Positions 42,994 through 55,644 of a DNA stretch of 55,772 bases are shown here, piece by piece. The notes below the pieces were generated by a model. That model worked only from the letters and a program-made list of their open reading frames with translations. It did not search any database and had not been told where the DNA came from. Source of the DNA: Erythrobacter sp. (GTDB taxonomy: Bacteria > Pseudomonadota > Alphaproteobacteria > Sphingomonadales > Sphingomonadaceae); NCBI GenBank assembly GCA_024642335.1, contig JAHEBH010000014.1, forward strand, positions 1-55,772, read 5' to 3'. Position 1 is the stretch's first letter. Every line of letters starts with the position of its first letter. A program made the position numbers and the translations under genes.

Positions 42994-43539
42994 ATGTCAG
43001 TCAAAGATGCAGACCTGCCCGAAGAGGTGATGTGGTCCGGCAAATGGATCGCTGCCAAGCGGCGCGGCCGGTGGGAATACGTCAGTCGCACTCGAGGTGT
43101 CAGGGCGGCCGTGATCCTGCCGATCGATGGCAATCACATCATCCTCGTCGAGCAATACCGTGTGCCGCATGGCGGGCGCGTGCTCGAACTTCCTGCCGGA
43201 CTGATCGGAGACGAGGCAGGCTCTGAAGACGAAGACACGCTTGCCGCTGCCAAGCGCGAACTGGTGGAGGAAACCGGCTATGCCGCAACCGAATGGCAGG
43301 ATTGCGGAACGTTCCTCTCCTCCCCTGGCATGACCAGCGAGAGCTTTACCCTGCTCAAGGCGACCAATCTCACGAAAGTGGGCAATGGTGGCGGTACCGA
43401 GGGCGAGGATATCATCGTGCACCGCGTGGCGCTGGCCGATCTGCCGCGGCATGTCGCATCTTGCCGAAAAGCCGGAATGGCGATCGACGTACGACTGCTG
43501 GCGCTATTGGGACCGGCGTTCCTGGGAGTGGAAACATGA
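42994..43539 (+). CDS. NUDIX hydrolase (ADP-ribose pyrophosphatase-like)
   Basis: A 181-residue enzyme. The Nudix region reads ELPAGLIGDEAGSEDEDTLAAAKRELVEETGY. The REL..EE.G core is exact, and the preceding glycine-to-glutamate spacing is lengthened by an acidic insert. The N-terminal strand order and VEQYRVPHGGRVLELPAGL resemble ADP-ribose and nucleotide-sugar pyrophosphatases. Its stop overlaps the next ATG by four bases. Confidence 0.88.
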   Translation: MSVKDADLPEEVMWSGKWIAAKRRGRWEYVSRTRGVRAAVILPIDGNHIILVEQYRVPHGGRVLELPAGLIGDEAGSEDEDTLAAAKRELVEETGYAATEWQDCGTFLSSPGMTSESFTLLKATNLTKVGNGGGTEGEDIIVHRVALADLPRHVASCRKAGMAIDVRLLALLGPAFLGVET

Positions 43540-44453
43540 AAGTCGGCATTCTGGGATCGGGCGCCATGGGTTGCCTGTTCGGCGCAGCGTTTCACCGGGC
43601 CGGATGCGATGTCACGCTGATTGATGTCAACTGGGCGCATGTCGATGCGATCAACGCCAATGGCCTCGAACTCGATACGCGCGCGGGCGTGGAGCACCTG
43701 CCCATCCCCGCCCGCCTTCCCGCCGACGCGGAAGGCCCATTCGACCTGGTGGTGGTCTTCACCAAGACCTTCCATACCGTGGGCGCCTTGGAAGGCATCC
43801 GCCACACCATCGGGGACAACACCCATTTGCTCAGCCTGCAGAATGGCCTTGGCAATGATGCCAAGCTGGCGGGAGTGGTCAGTGATGAGCGCGTGATGGT
43901 GGGCGCGAGCATGCTGCCGTCGGACCTTGAAGGCCCGGGCAAGGTGCGCAGCCATGGCGAGGGTTATTCCAAGCTCTACCCCGCATTCGGCGGCGATCCG
44001 ACCATGGCGCAGAAGGTTGCCGATGCGCTGACCAAGGGCGGCCTGCCTGCACAGCTCGACCCGAAGATCCACGCGGCGATCTGGTCCAAGGCCATCTTCA
44101 ATGCCGCGATGAACCCGATGTGCGCGCTTACCCTGCGCACACCCGGATTCCTGGGCGCAAGCAAGGAGGCGCGCGCCACCATTCGCGCGGTGGTGGAAGA
44201 AGGCGTGGCGGCCGCCCATGCCAATGGCGCCATGATCGATCCCAAGCCGATCCACGATCTGACCGAAGTCAGCATGACCGACCATGCCGATCATGAGGCC
44301 AGCATGCTGCAGGACGTGAAAGCGGGAAGACGCACCGAAGTCGATGCGATCAATGGCGCGATCGTCGAGGCAGCGCATGCGAAGGGGCTGACCGCACCAG
44401 TCACCCAGACGCTATGGCACCTCGTGAAGCTGGAAGAGGCGAAATTAGGCTAG
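43536..44453 (+). CDS. panE: 2-dehydropantoate 2-reductase family protein
   Basis: A 305-residue NADPH enzyme. The Rossmann start VGILGSGAMGCLFGAAFHRAG, the TKTFHT segment with the usual lysine, LQNGLGN, and KAIFNAAMNPMCALT with the catalytic Lys-Asn region are present. It would reduce ketopantoate to pantoate in coenzyme A synthesis. The family also contains other 2-oxoacid reductases, so panE is probable, not proven. Its 3' end overlaps the convergent oxygenase gene by nine bases. Confidence 0.83.
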   Translation: MKVGILGSGAMGCLFGAAFHRAGCDVTLIDVNWAHVDAINANGLELDTRAGVEHLPIPARLPADAEGPFDLVVVFTKTFHTVGALEGIRHTIGDNTHLLSLQNGLGNDAKLAGVVSDERVMVGASMLPSDLEGPGKVRSHGEGYSKLYPAFGGDPTMAQKVADALTKGGLPAQLDPKIHAAIWSKAIFNAAMNPMCALTLRTPGFLGASKEARATIRAVVEEGVAAAHANGAMIDPKPIHDLTEVSMTDHADHEASMLQDVKAGRRTEVDAINGAIVEAAHAKGLTAPVTQTLWHLVKLEEAKLG

Positions 44454-45350
44454 CCTGATCTCGCGCAGCCTCTCCATCAGGTAATCCTGCGCGGTGATAG
44501 GAGCTTCACCGCCCTCATAGATCGGATCGATCAGGAAATCGGGGCGGAAGTGCAGGAAGAAAGGCATCGAATAGCGCGCGCGTTTTGCCGCCTCGCCCAC
44601 GGGATTGACCACGCGGTGGGTCGTAGAGCGCAAGCGACCTGCGGTATAGCGTTGCAGCATGTCGCCGATATTCACCGCCAGCGCACCCGGTGGTGGTGAA
44701 ACGGACAGCCAGTTCCCGTCCCTGGCCAGCAGTTGCAGCCCCGCCTCTTCTGCTCCCAGCAGCAATGTGATGGTATTGATATCTTCATGCGCTGCGGCAC
44801 GGATCGCGCCTTCTTCCGGCTCTTCTATTGCTGGCGGATAGTGCAGCAGGCGCATGACGGAGTTTCCGTCCCGCACGCTGTCCTCGAAGAAGTCCTCCCC
44901 TTCTCCCAGATAGAGCGCGATGGCGGAAAGAATGCGCTTTCCCGTCCATTCGAAGGCGAGGAACAGGTCCTGCATGGTGGGACGGAAATCGGCCGGTTCA
45001 TCAGGCCAGATATTGGGCCGCATGACCTTCGTATACCGATGCCCTTCCGGCAGGTCGCGCCCTACATGCCAGAATTCCTTGAGGTCATGCACATTCGCAC
45101 CCTTGGCGGTCTCGACGCCAAACGGAGTATAGCCCCGCGCACCGCCCAGCCCGGCGCGGTGATATTGCCGCTTCGCCTCCTCCGGCAGTGCAAAGAATGC
45201 ACGCGCTGCGGCATCGGCCCGGTCGATCAGTTTCTGGTCAATGCCGTGGTCACACACCACGGCAAAACCGAATTCCTCGAACGACCGACCCAGGTCATCG
45301 GCAAATTCGCAAAGCGATTTTTCGAGGCTGACGGATGCAATTTCTGACAT
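44445..45350 (-). CDS. 2OG-Fe(II) oxygenase, isopenicillin N synthase-like
   Basis: A 301-residue enzyme of the IPNS/DIOX fold. The N-terminal part has FEEFGFAVVCDHGID. Iron ligands are the His-x-Asp in AAHEDINTITLL and the distal His in STTHRVVNP, with the 2-oxoglutarate arginine in RYSMPFFLHF. Start at 45350 (MSEIASVSLEK). Substrates range widely in this family, so no reaction is assigned. It diverges from the LigE-like GST gene with 78 bases between starts, so the two could share a control region. Confidence 0.88.
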   Translation of the reverse strand: MSEIASVSLEKSLCEFADDLGRSFEEFGFAVVCDHGIDQKLIDRADAAARAFFALPEEAKRQYHRAGLGGARGYTPFGVETAKGANVHDLKEFWHVGRDLPEGHRYTKVMRPNIWPDEPADFRPTMQDLFLAFEWTGKRILSAIALYLGEGEDFFEDSVRDGNSVMRLLHYPPAIEEPEEGAIRAAAHEDINTITLLLGAEEAGLQLLARDGNWLSVSPPPGALAVNIGDMLQRYTAGRLRSTTHRVVNPVGEAAKRARYSMPFFLHFRPDFLIDPIYEGGEAPITAQDYLMERLREIRLA

Positions 45351-45428
45351 GGCGCAATGTCTTCCACTTTCCTTTTGCGGCATCAACCAATAGCAAGCCC
45401 TTCAATCGCAAAATAGAAAGAACCAGCC

Positions 45429-46262
45429 ATGGCCAAGGACAACAAGATCACCCTTTATGACCTTCAGGTCTCCACGGGGGCCACGATCAGCCCCTTTGTC
45501 TGGGCGACCAAATTGGCTGTGGCGCACAAGGGATTCGATCTCGATATCGTGGAAGGTGGTTTCACCGGCATCATGGAGCGCACTGGAGGCAAGACCGAAC
45601 GCCTCCCGGCCATCGTCGATGACGGCAAATGGGTGCTCGATAGCTGGGGCATCGTCGAATATCTCGACCAGACCTATCCCGATCGGCCGATGCTGATCCC
45701 GCATGAAAGCACCGCCGCGCTGACCAAGGCGCTGGACGCATGGTTCTGGGCAACTGCGGTCGGCCCGTGGATGCGCTGCTTCTGCGCCGATTATCGCAAC
45801 GTCTGCTTCGAACATGACAAGGAATATGTCACCAGCACGCGCGAGGTCATGCTGGGCAAGAAGCTGGAGGACATGCAAGCCGGGCGTGAGGATCGCCTGC
45901 CTGCAATCTCGGCCGCGCTCGAACCGCTGCGCATGACATTGCGCGAGCACGCATTCCTTGGCGGCAGTGAACCGAACTATGCCGACTATCGCATCATGGG
46001 CGGCTTCCTCTGGCTCGCCTCCGTAGCGGGAACACCAGCGCTGGCCAGCGACGATCCGCTGCGCGGCTGGGTCGAGCGGGTATGCGCCCTGTTTGGCGGC
46101 CTCGGCAACCATCCCGGCCTGTTCCCGATCTTCGGACTTGAGCAGCGAGAGGGCGATCCCGATCCGTTCAACCGGCAGGCAGGCCAGGGCGGCATATTCA
46201 AGCGCAACACCGGGCCGGCATCCACGCAGGCAGAAACCAAGCACATCTTGAAGCAGGATTGA
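45429..46262 (+). CDS. GST-family protein similar to beta-etherase LigE
   Basis: 277 residues with a thioredoxin-like N-terminal domain and a helical C-terminal domain. From memory it aligns along its whole length with LigE of Sphingobium SYK-6. Shared blocks include NKITLYDLQ, TISPFVWATK, HKGFDLDIVEGGFTGI, ERTGGKTERLPAIVDDG, WVLDSW, YPDRPML, STAVGPW-type TAVGPWMRC, LEDMQAGREDRLP and FGLEQREGDPDPF. LigE cleaves beta-aryl ether bonds of lignin fragments using glutathione. The region near residue 135 and the C-terminal tail differ. Its stop overlaps the next start by 4 bases (TTGA). It is clearly a homologue of beta-etherases; etherase activity needs proof. Confidence 0.85.
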   Translation: MAKDNKITLYDLQVSTGATISPFVWATKLAVAHKGFDLDIVEGGFTGIMERTGGKTERLPAIVDDGKWVLDSWGIVEYLDQTYPDRPMLIPHESTAALTKALDAWFWATAVGPWMRCFCADYRNVCFEHDKEYVTSTREVMLGKKLEDMQAGREDRLPAISAALEPLRMTLREHAFLGGSEPNYADYRIMGGFLWLASVAGTPALASDDPLRGWVERVCALFGGLGNHPGLFPIFGLEQREGDPDPFNRQAGQGGIFKRNTGPASTQAETKHILKQD

Positions 46263-47236
46263 GCGAATTGGCAAAACTGAAGGTCCTGGTCACGCGCCGC
46301 TGGCCCGCCGAAGTCGAGGGCCAGCTAGGCGCGCTGTTCGACGTCACGCTGAATGAGAGCGACGAAGCAATGAGCCAGCAAGCGTTGGCTGCAGCCATGG
46401 CGGAATACGACGTTCTGTGCCCCACCGTGTCGGACAAGATCGATGCGGAGGTGATCGCTGGTGGTGACCGGGTGAAGCTGATCGCCAATTACGGCGTGGG
46501 TTTTGATCATATCGATCTTGCCGCAGCCAGAGCCAAGGGCATCGCCGTCACCAACACGCCCGGCGTACTGACCGATGCCACCGCCGACATCGCCATGACC
46601 CTGCTGCTGATGGCAGCCCGCCGCGCGGGCGAAGGCGAGCGCGAGTTGCGCGCCGGGCAATGGAGCGGATGGCGCCCCACCCACCTCATCGGCAGCGCGC
46701 TTAAGGGCAAGGTGCTGGGCTGCGTCGGCTTTGGCCGCATTGCCATTGCCACCGCCCGCCGCGCGCATCACGGCTTCGGCATGAAGATCGCCTTTTACGG
46801 CAGGCGGCCTTGCGATCCTGCCATGGCAGAAGAATTGCAGGCCGAATTCTGCGCTGACCTCAAGCAACTGCTAGGCAAGGCGGATTTCGTCTCGCTTCAC
46901 GTGCCGGGCGGCGCTGAAACCGCCAACATGATCGATGCAGACGCCATCGCGGCCATGAGGCCGGGGTCATATCTCATCAACACGGCCCGGGGCGGCGTGG
47001 TGGATAACCAGGCGCTGGCCGCAGCCCTGAAGAGCGGTCATCTCGCCGGCGCAGGACTCGATGTTTATCCGGCGGAACCTGCCGTGCCCGAATGCCTGCT
47101 GGGGCTCGAAAACGCCGTTCTTTTGCCGCACCTCGGCAGCGCCAATGCCCAGACGCGCATCGCCATGGGCATGTGTGCATTGGCCAATGTCGAAGCCTTT
47201 GCAAATGGCGCACAACTGCCTAACACCGTGGCATGA
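46259..47236 (+). CDS. D-2-hydroxyacid dehydrogenase (glyoxylate/hydroxypyruvate reductase-like)
   Basis: A 325-residue NAD(P)-dependent enzyme. IANYGVGFDHIDLAAARAKGIAVTNTPGVLTDATAD and the dinucleotide motif LGCVGFGRIAIATARRA are typical of GRHPR/2-ketogluconate reductases. So are the catalytic Arg in NTARGGVVD, Glu in YPAEPAVPE, and His in LLPHLGSA. It would reduce glyoxylate or hydroxypyruvate to glycolate or D-glycerate. The TTG start overlaps the GST stop, and its own stop overlaps the next start (ATGA). D-glycerate is the substrate of the kinase encoded next, which fits. Confidence 0.9.
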   Translation: MSELAKLKVLVTRRWPAEVEGQLGALFDVTLNESDEAMSQQALAAAMAEYDVLCPTVSDKIDAEVIAGGDRVKLIANYGVGFDHIDLAAARAKGIAVTNTPGVLTDATADIAMTLLLMAARRAGEGERELRAGQWSGWRPTHLIGSALKGKVLGCVGFGRIAIATARRAHHGFGMKIAFYGRRPCDPAMAEELQAEFCADLKQLLGKADFVSLHVPGGAETANMIDADAIAAMRPGSYLINTARGGVVDNQALAAALKSGHLAGAGLDVYPAEPAVPECLLGLENAVLLPHLGSANAQTRIAMGMCALANVEAFANGAQLPNTVA

Positions 47237-48099
47237 GTTCGGACCCCATCGAAGCGCTGATCGAGGCGCAAGGCCTTCCTGCCAGTTACCGAAATGTGGT
47301 GGAGACCTTTTGGCAACCGCTTGCCAATGGGATTGCGCGTGAAGCCACGAAGCACAGGCCCCTGATCGTAGGCATCAATGGCGGGCAAGGATCGGGCAAG
47401 TCGACGCTATGCGCTTTCCTCGAGGTTCTTCTCGCAAAACGGGGCGTTCGCGCAGTCACGCTTTCGATCGACGACCTTTATCTGGGCAAGGCCGAGCGCG
47501 AGGCACTGGCGAAGGAAGTCCATCCGCTGTTCGCGACGCGCGGCGTGCCGGGTACCCATTCACCAGCGCTTGGTCTGGCGATCATCGAGCAAATCTGCGC
47601 CGGACGCGCCTTTGAACTGCCACGCTTTGACAAGGCCACCGACGAACGCCGCCCGCAAGGCGAGCGTATCAGCGGGCCGGTCGATATCCTGCTGCTGGAG
47701 GGATGGTGCGTCGCCTGCCGCCCGCAAGCAGACGAGGAACTGCTGGAACCGGTCAACGATCTGGAGCGCGACGAAGACCCGGAAGGCATCTGGCGCGCGG
47801 TCGCCAATCTCTGGCTGAGCGGGGAATATCGGAAGCTCTTCGACCAGATCGACATGCTGGTGATGCTGAAGGTCCCAGAGTTCGATGCCGTCCTTGCCAA
47901 TCGCCGCAAGCAGGAAGAAAAGCTGCGCGCCTCACAGCCCGATGCTCCGGAACTGATGGATGATGCCGCCCTCAAGCGGTTCTGCCAGCATTATGAGCGG
48001 CTGACCCTGCACATGCTGGAAGACTTGCCGCGCAGGGCGGATGTCCTGTTTGAAATCGGTCCGGACCAAGTACCGAAAAACCTTCCCGACGGACTCTAG
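47233..48099 (+). CDS. D-glycerate 3-kinase (GLYK-type P-loop kinase)
   Basis: A 288-residue kinase. Walker A is GINGGQGSGKSTL near residue 50, followed by SIDDLYLGKAERE, GTHSPALG, PRFDKATDERRP, and the EGWCVACRP motif that mirrors the EGWMLGF stretch of plant glycerate kinase. It would convert D-glycerate to 3-phosphoglycerate, sending carbon to central metabolism. The four-base overlap with the dehydrogenase gene makes a three-gene unit GST-dehydrogenase-kinase. No terminator is seen before the next start at 48184. Confidence 0.87.
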   Translation: MSSDPIEALIEAQGLPASYRNVVETFWQPLANGIAREATKHRPLIVGINGGQGSGKSTLCAFLEVLLAKRGVRAVTLSIDDLYLGKAEREALAKEVHPLFATRGVPGTHSPALGLAIIEQICAGRAFELPRFDKATDERRPQGERISGPVDILLLEGWCVACRPQADEELLEPVNDLERDEDPEGIWRAVANLWLSGEYRKLFDQIDMLVMLKVPEFDAVLANRRKQEEKLRASQPDAPELMDDAALKRFCQHYERLTLHMLEDLPRRADVLFEIGPDQVPKNLPDGL

Positions 48100-48183: not shown

Positions 48184-50295
48184 ATGGGCATGGTCCGATT
48201 TGCAAGATTGATTGCGGGCATTGGCGCTCTGGCCCTTGCGGCCTGTTCCGAAGCTCCAACGGAATTTGGCGCGGTGGACGAGGCACGATTGCTCGACGCC
48301 GCAAACGATCCCGACAACTGGCTGTCGCATGGCCGCACCTATGCAGAAGACCGTTTCAGCCCGCTGGCGGACATCAACCTCGATAATGTCGGTGACCTGG
48401 CACTCGCATTTGCGGTCGAACTGGACACCAATCGCGGACAGGAAGCGACGCCCATCGTGGTCGACGGCGTCATGTATTTCTCCACCGCCTGGTCCAAGGT
48501 CATGGCTATCGATGCTGCCACTGGCAGGGAGTTGTGGCGATACGATCCCAAGGTCGACGGCGCAAAGGGCGCCCATGCTTGTTGCGACGTGGTCAATCGC
48601 GGCGTTGCCGTGTGGGAAGGCAAGGTCTTTGTCGGCGCGATTGATGGTCGCCTGATCGCGCTCGATGCCGCGACCGGCGATGAAATCTGGGATGTCGTCA
48701 CCGTTGACCAGGAGCAGCCCTACACCATCACCCAGGCCCCGCGCGTTGTGCGCGGCAAGGTTTATATCGGCAATTCGGGCGCCGAGATGGGCGTCCGCGG
48801 TTACCTTTCCGCCTATGATGCCCAGAGCGGCGAGCTCGTCTGGCGTTTCTACACGGTACCGGGAAATCCCGCCGATGGGCCGGACGGGGCAGCTTCGGAT
48901 GAGGTATTCGCGCAATTTGCTGGCGAGACCTGGAACGGCAGCTGGTGGGAAATGGGCGGCGGCGGCACCGTTTGGGATTCGCTCGTCTACGATGCGGATT
49001 TCGACCAGCTCCTCGTTGGCGTCGGCAATGGGTCCCCGTGGAACCACCGAGCACGTTCGGCGGGCGAAGGAGACAACCTCTTCCTTTCCTCCATCCTCGC
49101 GCTCGATCCCGATACGGGCGCGTACAAATGGCACTACCAGCTCAATCCGGGCGAAACCTGGGATTACACAGCCACGCAGCAGATGACTCTGGCCGATCTG
49201 GAGATCGACGGAAGGGCACGCAAGGTGGTCATGCAGGCACCCAAGAACGGGTTCTTCTATGTCATCGATCGCAGCAACGGAAAGCTGATCAGCGCGGAGC
49301 CCTATACCTACCAGAACTGGGCAGAGCGGATCGACCTTGAGACAGGACGTCCGGTGGAGATACCGGCCGCTCGATTTGCGGATGCGCCCTATCTCGTGAC
49401 GCCATCGGGCCTGGGCGCGCATGCGGTCCATCCGATGAGCTATTCGCCGCAGACGGGGCTTGTCTATATTCCCAGCATGCAGGTGCCCAGCGCCTATGCC
49501 GACGATGTGAACTACAAACGCAACATCGGTCGCTGGAACACCGGCGTTACCTTCCTGACCCCGCCCGCAGGGCTGGTTCCGGGCGATACTCCCGAAGCCC
49601 GCCGCGCCTATATCACTGCCCAGACAAAGGGCCGTCTGGTGGCCTGGGATCCTGTGGCGCAGCGCGAAGTCTGGGGGATCGACCGCGACTGGCCGTGGAA
49701 CGGCGGCACGCTGGCGACCGGTGGCAAGCTTGTCTTCGAAGGCACGGCGGACGGCTTGTTCCACGCTTATGATGCAAGCAACGGAGATGAATTGTGGAGT
49801 TTCGATACCGAGCGCGGCATCGTGGCCGGACCCATCTCCTACCGCGCCAATGGCGAGCAATTCATTGCCGTAATGGCCGGCTATGGCGGATCGATGGGCA
49901 TGGCCTCCGAAACGGGCTGGATGCGCCGCCCGCCTCCCAACGGCATGCTGTTGGTCTTCAAGCTGGGCGGCACGGGGTGGCTCGATCCCGTACCTGCGGT
50001 GCAGCCGCGGCCCTATACCGCTACTGAAGAACGCTTCACACAGGCGCAGATAGCCGAAGGGCAAACGCAGTTCTTCGCTTTCTGCACCATCTGCCATAAT
50101 GGCCCCACCAATCCCGATCTGCTGAGCAGCCCCGTGGCCGGAGACGCCGATGCATGGCAGGCGGTGGTCACCGAAGGCATTCTATCCCGACGCGGGATGA
50201 TCAGCTTTGCCCCCTGGATCGATGCGGATCAGGTAGAGGCCGTCCGCGCCTACGTACTGACAGAAGCCGAACGCCGGAATGAAATGGAGAATTGA
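48184..50295 (+). CDS. PQQ-dependent dehydrogenase with C-terminal haem c domain, lipoprotein signal
   Basis: 703 residues. The signal MGMVRFARLIAGIGALALAAC has a lipobox (LAAC), so the protein is probably anchored to a membrane rather than free in the periplasm. The 8-bladed propeller carries the vicinal Cys133-Cys134 pair that contacts PQQ, RGVRGYLSAYDAQSGELVWRFYTVPG-type blades, and GETWDYTATQQM. A haem c domain follows with C634-T-I-C-H638 and a distal Met in GMISFAPW. This is the type II quinohaemoprotein alcohol dehydrogenase plan: it oxidises an alcohol or aldehyde outside and sends electrons to cytochromes. Its stop overlaps the next gene by one base. Confidence 0.92.
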   Translation: MGMVRFARLIAGIGALALAACSEAPTEFGAVDEARLLDAANDPDNWLSHGRTYAEDRFSPLADINLDNVGDLALAFAVELDTNRGQEATPIVVDGVMYFSTAWSKVMAIDAATGRELWRYDPKVDGAKGAHACCDVVNRGVAVWEGKVFVGAIDGRLIALDAATGDEIWDVVTVDQEQPYTITQAPRVVRGKVYIGNSGAEMGVRGYLSAYDAQSGELVWRFYTVPGNPADGPDGAASDEVFAQFAGETWNGSWWEMGGGGTVWDSLVYDADFDQLLVGVGNGSPWNHRARSAGEGDNLFLSSILALDPDTGAYKWHYQLNPGETWDYTATQQMTLADLEIDGRARKVVMQAPKNGFFYVIDRSNGKLISAEPYTYQNWAERIDLETGRPVEIPAARFADAPYLVTPSGLGAHAVHPMSYSPQTGLVYIPSMQVPSAYADDVNYKRNIGRWNTGVTFLTPPAGLVPGDTPEARRAYITAQTKGRLVAWDPVAQREVWGIDRDWPWNGGTLATGGKLVFEGTADGLFHAYDASNGDELWSFDTERGIVAGPISYRANGEQFIAVMAGYGGSMGMASETGWMRRPPPNGMLLVFKLGGTGWLDPVPAVQPRPYTATEERFTQAQIAEGQTQFFAFCTICHNGPTNPDLLSSPVAGDADAWQAVVTEGILSRRGMISFAPWIDADQVEAVRAYVLTEAERRNEMEN

Positions 50296-51548
50296 TGAGC
50301 GATAGTACCGATGTCCTGATTGTCGGGGCAGGTCCCGTTGGCATGCTCACTGCCCTGGCGCTGGCGCAAAAGGGTGCCAGCGTGCGTGTGCTGGAGCGCG
50401 AGGACCACATAATCGATTCCCCGCGTGCAGCGGTCTATTTCCCCTCCACCCTGCTGATCCTGGAGGAGTTGGGCATACTGCCCGAGCTGGAGGAGATAGG
50501 CTTCCGTAACCGCAACTTCGGCACCCATGTTCCGGAATTCGATTATCACTCGGTGGTTGTCACCAAGCCTATCGAGGGCATCAAATATGATTACCAGCTC
50601 CATGCAGGGCAGGATGATGTGGCGCGCGTGGCAATGGAGCATGCCCGGAAGCTGGGTGTGGAAGTCCACTTCAGCCACGAGGTGCATGGCTATGAGGAAT
50701 ATGACGATCGCATTCTGGTGATGACCACCGGGCCCAACGACGAAAAGACCTATGAGGCGAAGTGGCTGATCGGCTGCGACGGTGCACGCAGCACGGTGCG
50801 CAAGCTGGCCGGGATCGAGTTCGAAGGCCACACCTGGCCCGAGCGTTTCGTTGCCACCAATGTGAAGTTCCCCTTCCATGAACTCGGCTATGAACAGGCG
50901 AATTTCGTCTGCGATCCGGTGAACATGGCGGTGATCGCCCAGCTTGACCGCGACGGGTTGTGGCGCTGCACCTACATGGAAGACTCCGCTTTGCCGGAGG
51001 AAACTTACGAAGAACGCATCCACCAGCGCTACGAATGGTTCATGCAAGGGCGCAAGGATTACGAGATCGTCTCTTCCAGCCCCTATATGCTCCACCAGCG
51101 CGCGGCGGAGACGCTGCACAAGGGCCGGGTGCTCCTGACAGGCGATGCCGCCCATGCCACCAATCCCTGTGGCGGACTGGGCCTGACCTCCGGCGTCTGG
51201 ACCGGCATTGTGCTGGCCGACATTCTGGGGGCGGTGTTGCAAGGAGAAGAGCACGAGGAAATCCTCGACCGCTTCAGCGACGAGCGGCGGCGAATCTTCT
51301 GGGAGGTGGTCACCCCGGCTGCGACCGAGAACAAGCGCATGCTGCAGGAACAGGATATGGAGCAGCGCAAGAAGGACCTCGCCCATATCAAGGCGCTCGA
51401 CACCAATCCGGAAAGCGGCGCGCTGCTGATGCTCTTTGCCTACAAGGTGATTGGTGATGTGCTGCGGCCGGGTTCGCGCTGGGCCGATGCCGATCCGTCC
51501 GATCGCGTCGCGATCAACATCCGCGACCGCAAGGGCCAGATCCATTGA
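50295..51548 (+). CDS. FAD-dependent aromatic monooxygenase (PheA/TfdB/MhpA-like)
   Basis: A 417-residue flavoprotein. It has an N-terminal GxGxxG in DVLIVGAGPVGMLTALALAQ, a middle DG motif in WLIGCDGARSTVRKLAG, and GRVLLTGDAAHATNPCGGLGLTSG with the GD motif. These three match group A flavin hydroxylases of phenols and phenylpropionates. It lacks the longer C-terminal thioredoxin-like domain of TfdB. The ATG at 50295 overlaps the preceding stop by one base (TGATG), behind GGAG. It would hydroxylate, probably an aromatic ring, in the cytoplasm. The next gene overlaps its stop by four bases. Confidence 0.87.
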   Translation: MSDSTDVLIVGAGPVGMLTALALAQKGASVRVLEREDHIIDSPRAAVYFPSTLLILEELGILPELEEIGFRNRNFGTHVPEFDYHSVVVTKPIEGIKYDYQLHAGQDDVARVAMEHARKLGVEVHFSHEVHGYEEYDDRILVMTTGPNDEKTYEAKWLIGCDGARSTVRKLAGIEFEGHTWPERFVATNVKFPFHELGYEQANFVCDPVNMAVIAQLDRDGLWRCTYMEDSALPEETYEERIHQRYEWFMQGRKDYEIVSSSPYMLHQRAAETLHKGRVLLTGDAAHATNPCGGLGLTSGVWTGIVLADILGAVLQGEEHEEILDRFSDERRRIFWEVVTPAATENKRMLQEQDMEQRKKDLAHIKALDTNPESGALLMLFAYKVIGDVLRPGSRWADADPSDRVAINIRDRKGQIH

Positions 51549-52630
51549 GCAAGTCCTATCGACCGCAGGACCTGCACGCAGCCGGCAAGGACAAACCGTT
51601 GGCGCTTGCCGCGCAAGGCTTCTTCTGGACCGGTGCCGAATTGATCGACCACCCCGCCGCAGGAAAGGCCGTGCGGGGGCAGCAATACGTCGAATACTGG
51701 ATTCCGCAGGATCTGCGCCACGAAACGCCGATCGTGATGATCCACGGCGGCGGGGCGCAAGGAACCAATTTCCTCGGCACTCCCGACGGGCGCGAAGGAT
51801 GGGTGCAATGGTTCGTCCGCCGGGGGTGGGCCGTCTATGTGGTGGATCGCCCGCAACACGGCCGCAGCCCGTTTCAGCCGGAATTCCAGGGGAAGATGGC
51901 GCAACCGGGACCGACGATCTTCATCGAAAGAATGTTCACCAGGCCGCAGGACTTTCCGGACAATTATCCGCAAGCCCATCTGCACACCCAGTGGCCGGGC
52001 AAGGGCGATGTCGAAGATCCCGCTTTCATCCAGTTCTTCTGTGGCGCAGGTCCTTCATTGGCCGACAACACCGCCGCACAGATGGATGCCCAACGTGCAG
52101 GCGCGGAGCTGCTGGACCTGATCGGACCAGCAATCCTTTTGACCAACTCGGCAGGCGCTCCGCCGGGCTGGTTGATAGCCGATGCAAGGCCGCAACTGGT
52201 CAAGGCCATAGTCGCGGTCGAGCCACTCGGCCCGCCATTCGAAGCGGTGAGCGGACCCATGCCCTATGGCATCACCCATGCGCCGATAACCTTCGAACCA
52301 CCGCTGGAGGACGGGCAATTGCCGCAAAGCCTGGACGTGCCGTCACCTGGAGAAGGAATGGTACCCTACAAGATCCAGGCGGAACCGGCGCGCCGCATAG
52401 CTGCCCTCGCCGCCTGTCCCATCGTGGTCGTCACGGCAGAGGCCAGCTGGATGGCTGCAGACAATCACGCCATTGTCCACTTCCTGCGTCAGGCCGGCGC
52501 ACAGGTGGAGCATGTGCGGCTGGAAGAACACGGCATCCACGGCAACAGCCATGCCTTGCAGATGGAAATGAACAGCGATGAAAGCGCCGCATTGATCGAG
52601 AGATGGCTGGTCCAGCAGGCAATTCGATAG
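51545..52630 (+). CDS. Alpha/beta hydrolase
   Basis: A 361-residue protein. HGGGAQGTNFLG is the oxyanion-hole region, and TNSAGAPPGWL holds the nucleophile serine in a non-standard N-S-A-G turn. EEHGIHGNSHALQ probably gives the catalytic His, and DRPQHGRSPF comes from an earlier loop. TTG start at 51545 overlaps the monooxygenase stop (TTGA). Substrate unknown. The absence of a signal peptide places it in the cytoplasm, with the monooxygenase. Confidence 0.82.
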   Translation: MSKSYRPQDLHAAGKDKPLALAAQGFFWTGAELIDHPAAGKAVRGQQYVEYWIPQDLRHETPIVMIHGGGAQGTNFLGTPDGREGWVQWFVRRGWAVYVVDRPQHGRSPFQPEFQGKMAQPGPTIFIERMFTRPQDFPDNYPQAHLHTQWPGKGDVEDPAFIQFFCGAGPSLADNTAAQMDAQRAGAELLDLIGPAILLTNSAGAPPGWLIADARPQLVKAIVAVEPLGPPFEAVSGPMPYGITHAPITFEPPLEDGQLPQSLDVPSPGEGMVPYKIQAEPARRIAALAACPIVVVTAEASWMAADNHAIVHFLRQAGAQVEHVRLEEHGIHGNSHALQMEMNSDESAALIERWLVQQAIR

Positions 52631-52706
52631 TTAGCTCAGCAAAACATTAGCCCTCATGCAATTCTGCCGTTATGGGGGCACAAGAGTATCATTGGGAAGA
52701 GACAGA

Positions 52707-54641
52707 GTGCGCAAAGTAATGGGTGTGACCTTGGCGGCCAGCATGTTGGCATCGCCAATCCTGGCGCAGGAAGTGGCTGACGGCGACTGGCCGCTTTATG
52801 CCCGCGATCATTCCGGCCAGCGTTATGCGCCGCTGGCCGATATCAATCTGCAAAATGTGGACACGATCCAACGTGCCTGGAGTTTCCCGATCAGCCCCGG
52901 TGGCGGTGGCGGCGCATTGGCGGGCACGGTTCCGGTAGTCATCGATGGCACCATGTACCTTCCCGTGACCGGTGCCATCGTTGCGCTGGACGGATCGACG
53001 GGTCGGGAAATCTGGCGCCATGAAGTTGCCGATGGCCAGCCGCGGCGCTCGGTCACCTATTGGCCCGGCGCTGGCAACATTGCCCCGCGCCTGTTCTACA
53101 ATCCGGGAAATTCCATCGTCGCGCTCAATCCGGCGACCGGCGAAATCGATACGACTTTTGCCGACAATGGCGAGTTGACCTGGGAGGGTTCGCGGTACAG
53201 TTATCCGCCCAGCGTGTTCCACGATGTGCTGGTTATCGGTGCGCTGACGCCTGAAATTCCCGCAGGTCCGGATGGCGATACGCGCGCTTTCGATGCCCGC
53301 ACGGGAGAATTCCGCTGGGCATTCAACACGATCCCGCATGAAGGTGAATTCGGCAACGAGACATGGCTCAACGACGGTTGGCGCGACCGTCCAGGTGCCA
53401 ATATGTGGATCTGGTACACTACTGCCGATGTGGAAACCGGAACGCTCTACTTCACGCTCGGCAGCCCCGGACCAAACTACTACGGCGGTGATCGACCGGG
53501 CGACAATCTTTTCGGCAATTCGCTCGTCGCGGTCGATATCGAGACGGGCGAATACAGGTGGCACTTCCAGGCCATCCATCACGAATTGTGGGACTGGGAC
53601 CTGCCTGCCCCGCCCGTACTGGTGAACCTTGATGTGGAAGGCGAAAACGCTCCCGGCCTCGCGCTGACCGGCAAGAACGGACTGATGTATATCCTCAACC
53701 GCGAAACGGGAGAGCCAATCCACGGCGTGAACGAGCATTTCGTGGCTGCCGCCAATGTGCCAGGCGAATGGTATAGCCCGACACAGCCGATCCCGGTGAA
53801 GCCTGAACCCTTGCAGCGCATGTGGTGGAACCCGTCGGATGTCGTCACGGTTGAGGACACCAACGAGGAACATGTCGCCGCCTGCCATGCCTTGCTGGAC
53901 AGTTACGGTGGCACCTTCTTCAATTCAGGCCCCTTCACACCCTTCTTCCTGCGCGAGAAGGGCGATCCTCCCCGGGCATCGATCAATATGCCGCATAATG
54001 GTGGATCGGTCTGGGGCGGGAGCGCAGCGGATCCCACCACCGGCTATGTCTATGTCAACATCACCGAAGGCGGATCGATCGGCTGGATCGAACCGCGCGA
54101 TCCTGAGGGCAATTACGGCAACGGCACGCAAGACTCATGGCAGCCTTACGACCGAGGAAGCCTGACCGGCCCCGGCGCCTATTCCGGCTTCATTGCCAGC
54201 TTCGAGGATGATGACGGACGCAGCGTGTCGCTGCCATGCATCCGTCCGCCTTGGGGACATATGGTTGCGGTAGATGGTAATACGGGTGAAATCGCCTGGA
54301 AGGTCAAGTTGGGCACCACGCCGCAACTGGAGGAAGGCAAGCGGGACACAGGCGCGAACAACTCCGCAGGCGGAGCCATGGTAACCGCGGGTGGCCTGGT
54401 CTTCATCGGTGCAACCAGCGACGGATTGTTCCGCGCTTTTGATTCCGCCACAGGCGAGATCGTATGGGAAGAGCAGCTCGACTATACTGTCAACTCGATC
54501 CCGATGAGCTATCGTGGGGCCGACGGCAGGCAATATATCGCCGTCGTCGCTACAGGCGGCACGGCCTATGGCCTTGTCCGCAACGAGGAAGGCCGCCCGG
54601 CCAATGCAGAATCCGTCATCGTCTGGGCGTTGCCCGAGTGA
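52707..54641 (+). CDS. PQQ-dependent dehydrogenase without haem domain (glucose/quinate type)
   Basis: 644 residues. The GTG at 52707 follows GGGAAGAGA and begins the signal RKVMGVTLAASMLASPILAQ; an in-frame ATG at 52656 is longer but poorly placed. The mature chain has repeated W-motif blades (GRSTGREIWRHEV-like, ATGEIVWEEQ) and PHNGGSVWGGSAADPTTG. That pattern resembles the soluble part of membrane glucose and quinate dehydrogenases, but there is no membrane domain and no CxxCH. It would oxidise a polyol, acid or cyclic alcohol in the periplasm and pass electrons to another carrier. Confidence 0.88.
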   Translation: MRKVMGVTLAASMLASPILAQEVADGDWPLYARDHSGQRYAPLADINLQNVDTIQRAWSFPISPGGGGGALAGTVPVVIDGTMYLPVTGAIVALDGSTGREIWRHEVADGQPRRSVTYWPGAGNIAPRLFYNPGNSIVALNPATGEIDTTFADNGELTWEGSRYSYPPSVFHDVLVIGALTPEIPAGPDGDTRAFDARTGEFRWAFNTIPHEGEFGNETWLNDGWRDRPGANMWIWYTTADVETGTLYFTLGSPGPNYYGGDRPGDNLFGNSLVAVDIETGEYRWHFQAIHHELWDWDLPAPPVLVNLDVEGENAPGLALTGKNGLMYILNRETGEPIHGVNEHFVAAANVPGEWYSPTQPIPVKPEPLQRMWWNPSDVVTVEDTNEEHVAACHALLDSYGGTFFNSGPFTPFFLREKGDPPRASINMPHNGGSVWGGSAADPTTGYVYVNITEGGSIGWIEPRDPEGNYGNGTQDSWQPYDRGSLTGPGAYSGFIASFEDDDGRSVSLPCIRPPWGHMVAVDGNTGEIAWKVKLGTTPQLEEGKRDTGANNSAGGAMVTAGGLVFIGATSDGLFRAFDSATGEIVWEEQLDYTVNSIPMSYRGADGRQYIAVVATGGTAYGLVRNEEGRPANAESVIVWALPE

Positions 54642-54657
54642 CGCTGGGAGACATGTG

Positions 54658-55644
54658 ATGAAAGCAACCAAGACTCTTTTCGGTGGAGTGGCCGCCATCG
54701 CCCTCACTGCCTGTGCCGTCAATGCACAAGAGACGATCACCACGCCGGAAGGCGCGGTCATGCAGTCCGGCAGCGATCTCGCCTATGCGCCTGGTGAACT
54801 GACCGACGCCCAGCTCAACGGCACCATGCGGGCCGAATTCCGGCAAAATTCGATGAATGTCTTCCGCCGTTTCCCCCGCGAATTGACCGAGGAAATGGTC
54901 AACTTCTATGTCAACGCATTACACCTGCGTTCGCTCAATCCGATCCAGCTTACCGCAACCCAGCAGATGATCCTGACAGGGGTCGGCAGCGGACAGATCA
55001 AGCTTTCTGCCGGGCAGCAGGGTAACCGCCTGTACAATCTTGAAGGAGGCTACGCAGGCGGGACCGGCATCCGCTTCTTCTTGCTCAGCTATCCCGATGC
55101 CGATGTGGTGAGCCAGCGCTTTGCCGACGCCGGGTTGGCCGCGCCCGAGTTCGTCCAACGCGGCGATGGTGTCCAGCAAGCTCTGGTTCGCGATCCGGGC
55201 GGTTTCGACATCGTTATCCTGATCCGCGAGGGGGTTCAGGATGGATCAGAGGACGGAATTGGCGTGGGTATCCATGTCTCCGATCTGGAGGCCAGTCGCG
55301 CATTCTATCGCGATTTTGTGGGCCTCGACGAATTGCAGCCCTTCGACGCCCCGATCCTGGGAACGAGATTCTATCCCTATCGCCACGCAGAAACGAGCAT
55401 CCTGCTCTACAAGATGGGCGACGATCTGCCAGCCGACAACGGCAATGCAGGAATCCAGTACGTGGTGGCCGATGCGCCACTTGCGGCGGCCTTGGCGGCA
55501 CATCGCGGCGTTGCGGTGGAAACGCCGCTCAACAAGCTGACCGGTTTCGACCTGATAACCGTGTGGCTCAACGATCCCGATGGCGTGACCAATTACTTCG
55601 CCCAGGTCGGCCCGAGCAGCCGCACAGCCCGCGGCGAGAACTGA
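54658..55644 (+). CDS. Exported two-domain VOC (glyoxalase-fold) protein
   Basis: 328 residues. GGGAGA precedes the ATG. The signal MKATKTLFGGVAAIALTAC could be lipidated at C19 or cut after VNA; either way the product leaves the cytoplasm, unusual for the VOC fold. Residues about 60-185 and 195-320 each form a VOC repeat (FRRFPRELTEEMVNFYVNALHLRSLNPIQ, then GIGVGIHVSDLEASRAFYRDFVGLDELQPF and DPDGVTNYFAQVG). His and Glu metal ligands are present in part. It could bind or open an aromatic or act on glyoxal-like products of the PQQ enzymes. Confidence 0.82.
   Translation: MKATKTLFGGVAAIALTACAVNAQETITTPEGAVMQSGSDLAYAPGELTDAQLNGTMRAEFRQNSMNVFRRFPRELTEEMVNFYVNALHLRSLNPIQLTATQQMILTGVGSGQIKLSAGQQGNRLYNLEGGYAGGTGIRFFLLSYPDADVVSQRFADAGLAAPEFVQRGDGVQQALVRDPGGFDIVILIREGVQDGSEDGIGVGIHVSDLEASRAFYRDFVGLDELQPFDAPILGTRFYPYRHAETSILLYKMGDDLPADNGNAGIQYVVADAPLAAALAAHRGVAVETPLNKLTGFDLITVWLNDPDGVTNYFAQVGPSSRTARGEN

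Follow-up and report, generated by a model that had tools for sequence, protein, structure and literature searches.

A LigE-class glutathione S-transferase gene before a putative glycerate-salvage pair in Erythrobacter: an arrangement probably inherited as a neighbourhood and less likely to be a new pathway

Why should a gene resembling those of lignin beta-etherases stand directly before two genes that look like glycerate metabolism? The question is raised by a contig of Erythrobacter sp. (JAHEBH010000014.1 of GCA_024642335.1), whose 55,772 nucleotides were analysed as a whole and are called the window. It is contig C98 of a 105-contig genome of 2.66 Mb (98.67% complete). Three plus-strand open reading frames were confirmed in a row, where a preliminary description made from the sequence alone had placed them:

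45429..46262, plus strand, LigE-class glutathione S-transferase (GST), a probable beta-aryl etherase of 277 amino acids (NF042997, 4yam, site residues)
46259..47236 from the first TTG (TTG 46268 being the likelier start), plus strand, D-2-hydroxyacid dehydrogenase, glyoxylate/hydroxypyruvate reductase-like (PF02826, PF00389, 6bii)
47233..48099, plus strand, probable class III (GLYK-type) D-glycerate kinase of 288 amino acids (phmmer to 6ckg and 7xpc)

The GST is probably an ordinary LigE-class etherase that works with LigF, standing in front of a separate and older glycerate-salvage pair. With glutathione it would displace the aryloxy group from Calpha-oxidised beta-O-4 dimers, acting together with a LigF encoded elsewhere in the genome. 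The dehydrogenase and the kinase would form a separate, more widespread unit that converts hydroxypyruvate to D-glycerate and then to phosphoglycerate. In five genera the GST would stand directly before this pair as part of a long inherited gene block, and a shared substrate would not be required. Genome comparison favours reading the row as a neighbourhood that was inherited over reading it as a new pathway.

The GST and its co-occurrence with LigF

The first gene had been described as a homologue of LigE, and this is borne out. Its product scores 500 bits against NF042997, the NCBI equivalog model of beta-etherases (curated cut-off 440 bits), and its best solved relative is 4yam, named 'Beta-etherase' (E 2e-106). 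Compared with the proteins of Sphingobium sp. SYK-6, it is 57-59% identical to LigE and 62-63% identical to LigP. The second SYK-6 GST of the class is taken for LigP because the other one stands in the LigDFEG row, whose gene names were assigned by locus tags given in parts of PMC6369299 and PMC5892560. A passage in PMC6369299 reports that characterised LigE homologues are more than 59% identical to one another. Twelve residues of the LigE glutathione site and pocket are named in a section of PMC4777856. Seven of them (S21, F45, D71, S72, W107, Y133, and R138) are invariant in the 28 distinct GST rows from loci with the three-gene order (trio loci), and the window GST keeps eight, namely these seven and W197. 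The LigE serine and the glutathione-binding side chains (S21, D71, S72, Y133, and R138) are found in the window and in all 28 trio rows. Judging from its sequence, the GST is a probable LigE-class beta-aryl etherase, for which etherase activity and beta-R stereochemistry are predicted.

The proposal to place the GST in a tree was followed with 71 distinct rows, which include LigE and LigP of SYK-6 but neither NaLigE nor detoxification GSTs; pieces shorter than 200 amino acids, duplicate rows, and loci L001 and L051-L059 were excluded, and the context labels were assigned by us. All 28 trio rows share one clade of 47 rows (100/100) with GSTs of Novosphingobium type and of Parvularculaceae. Within the LigE class, the window GST thus groups with Novosphingobium-type GSTs, and LigE and LigP themselves stand outside its clade. 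NaLigE is given as 61% identical to LigE and 66% identical to LigP in a part of PMC5892560. Since the Novosphingobium-type rows have matching identities (58-61% to LigE and 62-67% to LigP), NaLigE may be assigned to the same clade. Five clade rows adjoin a gene of one cluster, of which the scanned member (L023) passes the models of syringate O-demethylase (865 bits against 800) and LigM (603 bits against 580).

Which genes accompany the GST was counted in a family survey of 249 genomes (E limits 1e-80 for the GST, 1e-75 for LigF, 1e-110 for the close dehydrogenase, and 1e-40 for any GLYK-type kinase). The LigE-class GST occurs in 33 genomes, the close dehydrogenase in 26, and a GLYK-type kinase in 77, and the SYK-6 LigF query gave 32 matches. 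While GST and LigF are found together in 30 genomes (GST only in G007, G039, and G140; LigF only in G116 and G122; phi 0.91), GST and close dehydrogenase are found together in 20 (13 with GST only, six with dehydrogenase only; phi 0.64), and GST and any GLYK-type kinase in 26 (seven with GST only, 51 with kinase only; phi 0.40). Among the exceptions, G039 and G122 belong to a single genus and have fragmented genomes, and G140 is 77% complete. By genus, GST and LigF are common to 12 of 14 genera, GST and dehydrogenase to 7 of 15. Among the 17 genomes with the GST but not the trio, LigF is present in 14 and the close dehydrogenase in four. The LigF orthologue of the window's genome (62% identity) lies on another contig (G000:C96:40260-40976; L126), where no other lig genes were recognised beside it. 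All 16 trio genomes of the survey have a LigF orthologue, the matched stretch of G237 containing one stop codon.

Of the 26 genomes with the close dehydrogenase, 10 have the pair without an adjoining GST, and six of these ten have no LigE-class GST at all (loci with the pair but no adjoining GST are L066-L069, L105-L111, L114, L115, and L123). One genome of the window's genus, G218, has neither LigE-class GST nor LigF, yet keeps the dehydrogenase and the kinase. The preliminary description had tied the job of the GST to glyoxylate or hydroxypyruvate and had proposed its metabolic coupling to the pair. Neither idea gains support from these counts, the GST tracking LigF better than it tracks the dehydrogenase or the kinase. 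Under such coupling, the GST would cleave an ether whose C2/C3 fragment becomes hydroxypyruvate or glyoxylate and is assimilated by the reductase and the glycerate kinase. This dedicated shared route is improbable: the close gene order is conserved in five genera, and in one genome (G120) the pair is followed by a taurine-dioxygenase-like gene (below its model cut-off), but the GST co-occurs more tightly with LigF than with the pair, the pair stands without an adjoining GST in the ten genomes above, unrelated genes beside the row are equally conserved, and glyoxylate carboligase (Gcl) was not found above cut-off in the trio genomes. Taurine-dioxygenase-like enzymes can release glyoxylate from ethers. 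If true, the shared route would be a branch of ether catabolism (with a C3, hydroxypyruvate-level fragment) not described so far. Another idea was that the GST belongs to polyethylene-glycol degradation; the literature search lent it no support.

On contig C45 of the window's genome (L128) are genes for protocatechuate 4,5-dioxygenase alpha (TIGR02792, 220 bits against 109) and for a class III extradiol dioxygenase beta (485 bits against 317). Two genes of the short-chain dehydrogenase/reductase (SDR) family are candidates for a Calpha-dehydrogenase in this genome, L128:9416-10360 and L127:17452-18414. The former, which has the protocatechuate 4,5-dioxygenase genes in its vicinity, shares 66% identity with a SYK-6 SDR other than LigD. 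The two SDRs are 34-39% identical to the SYK-6 genes taken for LigL, LigN, and LigO. Strain SG61-1L, named Erythrobacter in a part of PMC5892560 and Novosphingobium in a part of PMC6369299, is reported to break GGE.

The dehydrogenase, the kinase and their junctions

Membership of the second product in the D-2-hydroxyacid dehydrogenase superfamily is given by PF02826 (E 2e-53) and PF00389. Its best PDB match is the glyoxylate reductase 6bii, and the other top structures are glyoxylate reductases as well. It falls under every NCBIfam equivalog cut-off, that of the glyoxylate/hydroxypyruvate reductase model NF009714 included (288 bits against 455), so the earlier label of reductase-like holds for the superfamily and the nearest structures while no equivalog assignment is reached. 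The label of a GLYK-type kinase fares likewise. The closest solved structures of the third product, found with phmmer, are the D-glycerate 3-kinases 6ckg (E 3e-15) and 7xpc, while Pfam gives no match and all NCBIfam matches are under cut-off. It is a probable class III glycerate kinase, a class described in a part of PMC2063504. The substrates of both enzymes are those predicted from these resemblances.

Where might the glycerate come from? Isocitrate lyase (TIGR01346) was not found in the 16 trio genomes, and no Gcl (TIGR01504) was found above cut-off in 18 genomes searched, these 16 included. Weaker carboligase matches, probably acetolactate synthase, occur in all 18 genomes and in all 14 controls. 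A glyoxylate product would therefore be without a known route to D-glycerate in the trio genomes, and hydroxypyruvate is likelier than glyoxylate as the source of glycerate. A path from GST-made glyoxylate to glycerate through the carboligase was rejected on this ground.

A preference for hydroxypyruvate would also suit growth on methoxylated aromatics, on which demethylases would feed one-carbon units into serine, and serine would be passed through hydroxypyruvate and the pair to glycolysis. GST and pair would then serve one growth state and have no common substrate. The window's genome contains two relatives of the DesA/LigM-family demethylase (E≤1e-60) and each of the 15 remaining trio genomes two or more, the three genes are closely spaced, and the close dehydrogenase and LigF are correlated (phi 0.65). 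This co-expression is nevertheless unlikely: G218 lacks the GST although it has both the pair and demethylase relatives; the pair is present in G123, G179, and G225, where no such demethylase was matched at the same limit; and the literature search gave no paper joining vanillate O-demethylase, tetrahydrofolate, serine, and hydroxypyruvate.

The preliminary description had seen four-base overlaps at both junctions. The comparison was made on 28 distinct trio junctions from 39 loci, the overlap types being counted by eye. Between dehydrogenase and kinase the overlap (ATGA at 47233) is real and conserved, being of four bases in 26 of the 28 junctions (23 ATGA and three GTGA), with TTGATG in the remaining two. 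The overlap between GST and dehydrogenase (TTGA at 46259) is open to doubt. TTG 46259 is directly preceded by an AGGA (46255-46258), from which the in-frame TTG 46268 is nine bases away. A TTG at the position of 46268 exists in the window and in all five of its nearest trio relatives (L002-L006), an in-frame overlapping TTG at the position of 46259 in three of the six (the window, L002, and L003). Because of its normal distance to AGGA and its conservation in L002-L006, TTG 46268 is the likelier start, the junction with the GST then being a gap of five bases. The form of this junction varies among the trio loci, the conserved RRW codons of the dehydrogenase lying at most 45 bases from the GST stop in 27 of 28 (about 160 bases in L008).

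In the window, 15 of 32 same-strand neighbour pairs overlap, nine of them by exactly four bases, according to a non-standard codon-usage gene caller of our own that missed a 2-oxoglutarate/Fe(II) (2OG)-oxygenase gene in another locus (L071). Since nine of 32 pairs have them, four-base overlaps say little by themselves, and they were rejected as proof of coupling. The close spacing suggests joint production of the GST and the pair, possibly because lignin-derived substrates call for both, and they are probably co-transcribed.

The conserved neighbourhood

A search for the same three-gene order in relatives, proposed earlier, was successful. The order exists in 16 of the 249 family genomes, which belong to five genera, and a chance arrangement was rejected on account of this recurrence. 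A species-wide scan (one genome per species, 84,980 species, restricted to six query-derived peptide patterns) found 50 GST loci, 18 of them with the trio (L002-L013, L022, L025, and L031-L034). L035 and L051, with little or no sequence after the match, could not be scored for the trio, and L021 extends only about 300 bases past the GST. The two surveys share organisms. LigE-class GSTs without the trio are found in Parvularculaceae and Caulobacteraceae records (L024, L027, and L047). A class-wide search found the GST in three of 385 genomes, all of the window's genus.

The trio is not conserved by itself. Two further genes of the window belong to a block that lies upstream of the trio in every one of the 16 family genomes:

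42994..43539, plus strand, open reading frame of the conserved upstream block, which we take to be a Nudix gene
43536..44453, plus strand, ketopantoate-reductase-family gene (ApbA/PanE; PF02558/PF08546, and TIGR00745 over cut-off)

While ApbA was scanned, the names MscL, LemA, TPM, Nudix, CysD/CysN, SH3, and PurS/PurQ are labels that we assume for the genes in question. Genes presumed to be MscL, LemA, TPM1, and Nudix lie upstream in all 16 trio loci together with ApbA. Since all of these loci share the same upstream genes, the adjacency of GST and pair may be read as inherited synteny. Relatives with a rearranged block exist. In G218 (L066), Nudix is followed by the dehydrogenase and the kinase without ApbA or GST between them. 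In G074 and G239 of another genus (L120 and L121), Nudix is followed by a kinase of 41-43% identity and ApbA, and the GST sits elsewhere, beside sulfate-assimilation-like genes. In SYK-6, LigP is about 2.4 kb from the same Nudix-TPM-LemA-MscL block and no dehydrogenase or kinase adjoins it. From the common upstream block and these rearrangements it appears that the conserved adjacency takes in genes unlikely to share a pathway. On the GST tree the trio label changes five times, at least three changes being forced by well-supported branches, and the GSTs from the sulfate-assimilation-like setting are nested among the trio rows, implying that the association of GST and pair has changed more than once.

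The downstream side is less fixed. In the stretches fetched for the 16 trio loci, a pyrroloquinoline quinone (PQQ) dehydrogenase of a second kind is found in 11, one of a first kind in seven, and a molybdopterin oxidase pair in four, and L075 has none of these. A GST that has lost its etherase function could detoxify a reactive electrophile made by such neighbouring dehydrogenases, and the 11 loci with the second-kind PQQ gene would agree with this. It is very improbable, however, given that seven of the 12 named site residues are invariant, that the GST is co-inherited with LigF, and that five of the 16 loci show no PQQ gene in the fetched stretch.

Other genes lie around the row. On the minus strand of the window, between ApbA and the GST, is a 2OG-oxygenase-family gene (44445-45386; DIOX_N, 2OG-FeII_Oxy). 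It was called in five of the 16 trio loci, and tblastn shows a sixth region (L003, the same as L071). Positions 48184-54641 hold genes for a PQQ alcohol dehydrogenase with a cytochrome c domain, an FAD monooxygenase, an alpha/beta hydrolase, and a second PQQ dehydrogenase. The first three overlap by four bases, and monooxygenase and hydrolase are found in only three of the 16 trio loci. At 54655-55644, after the second PQQ dehydrogenase, is a gene for a protein with a C-terminal glyoxalase/dioxygenase-fold domain, with a homologue in 10 of the 16 trio loci. In G120 the taurine-dioxygenase-like gene (L068:9426-10388, 145 bits against a cut-off of 313) comes after the dehydrogenase and the kinase and is followed by a PQQ dehydrogenase. 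A gene of the same cluster adjoins the kinase of G200.

Several observations weigh against an ordinary etherase standing before a separate pair. Some or all trio rows depart from LigE at five of the 12 named positions: Y23F, V59L, and F115M are as in LigP (V59 being a backbone binder), F142 is replaced by L, I, or V (F142L as in Novosphingobium-type rows), and position 197 is W in 14 rows, the window's among them, and F in the other 14. It is reported in a part of PMC11497285 that a LigE-type enzyme of Agrobacterium did not show the LigE reaction. For LigD, which the preliminary description had rightly missed beside the GST, the search of the window's genome turned up no orthologue, the best SDR sharing 35% identity with LigD and 66% with another gene of SYK-6, and among the 16 trio genomes a LigD orthologue (at least 53%) was found only in G196 (56%). 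The GST also goes strongly with the 21 closest kinases (20 genomes with both, 13 with GST only, one with kinase only; phi 0.73), and LigF and the close dehydrogenase are correlated (20 with both, six with dehydrogenase only, 12 with LigF only). All these counts carry shared ancestry and are not independent events, and the E-value limits differ between the proteins. The spacing of GST and dehydrogenase, close in 27 of 28 junctions, agrees with selection for joint expression. One group has seven loci (L014, L017-L019, and L086-L088) in which about 0.6 kb separates the GST gene from that of another 2-hydroxyacid dehydrogenase, an opposite-strand gene lying between the two; this other dehydrogenase is 46-50% identical in the four loci measured.

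Comparison with known systems

In the open-access literature, no paper was found that joins beta-etherase with glycerate kinase, or glycerate kinase with hydroxypyruvate reductase and Sphingomonadales, and beta-etherase was absent among the matches listed on glyoxylate, hydroxypyruvate, and glycerate. No report was found there of a LigE-class GST in this neighbourhood, which does not show that it is unpublished, and use of beta-ethers by the group is partly known. The analysis adds a sphingomonad-type group in which beta-etherases of both classes are probably encoded away from the known lig rows. It also illustrates that a conserved neighbourhood can suggest a pathway which gene co-occurrence does not bear out. 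LigE-class GST and LigF, both present in 30 of the 35 genomes with either, could serve to mark beta-aryl ether use in genomes.

The nearest known relatives of the window GST are LigE and LigP of SYK-6 and NaLigE (Saro_2405) of Novosphingobium aromaticivorans. These are alike in sequence class, length, glutathione-site residues, and co-occurrence with LigF. While the window GST heads a row with a dehydrogenase and a kinase, neither ligD nor ligF adjoins it. The LigDFEG row of SYK-6 is similar in that a LigE-class GST has a LigF partner in the genome. It differs in that its four genes are contiguous; in the window's genome LigF lies on a separate contig, and the search for a LigD orthologue gave none. 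The other two genes of the window recall the hydroxypyruvate reductase and class III glycerate kinase of plant photorespiration. Here, too, a D-2-hydroxyacid dehydrogenase is joined with a GLYK-type kinase, and in the genomes surveyed the two adjoin each other also without the GST. The pair in the window is bacterial, and its substrates are predicted ones.

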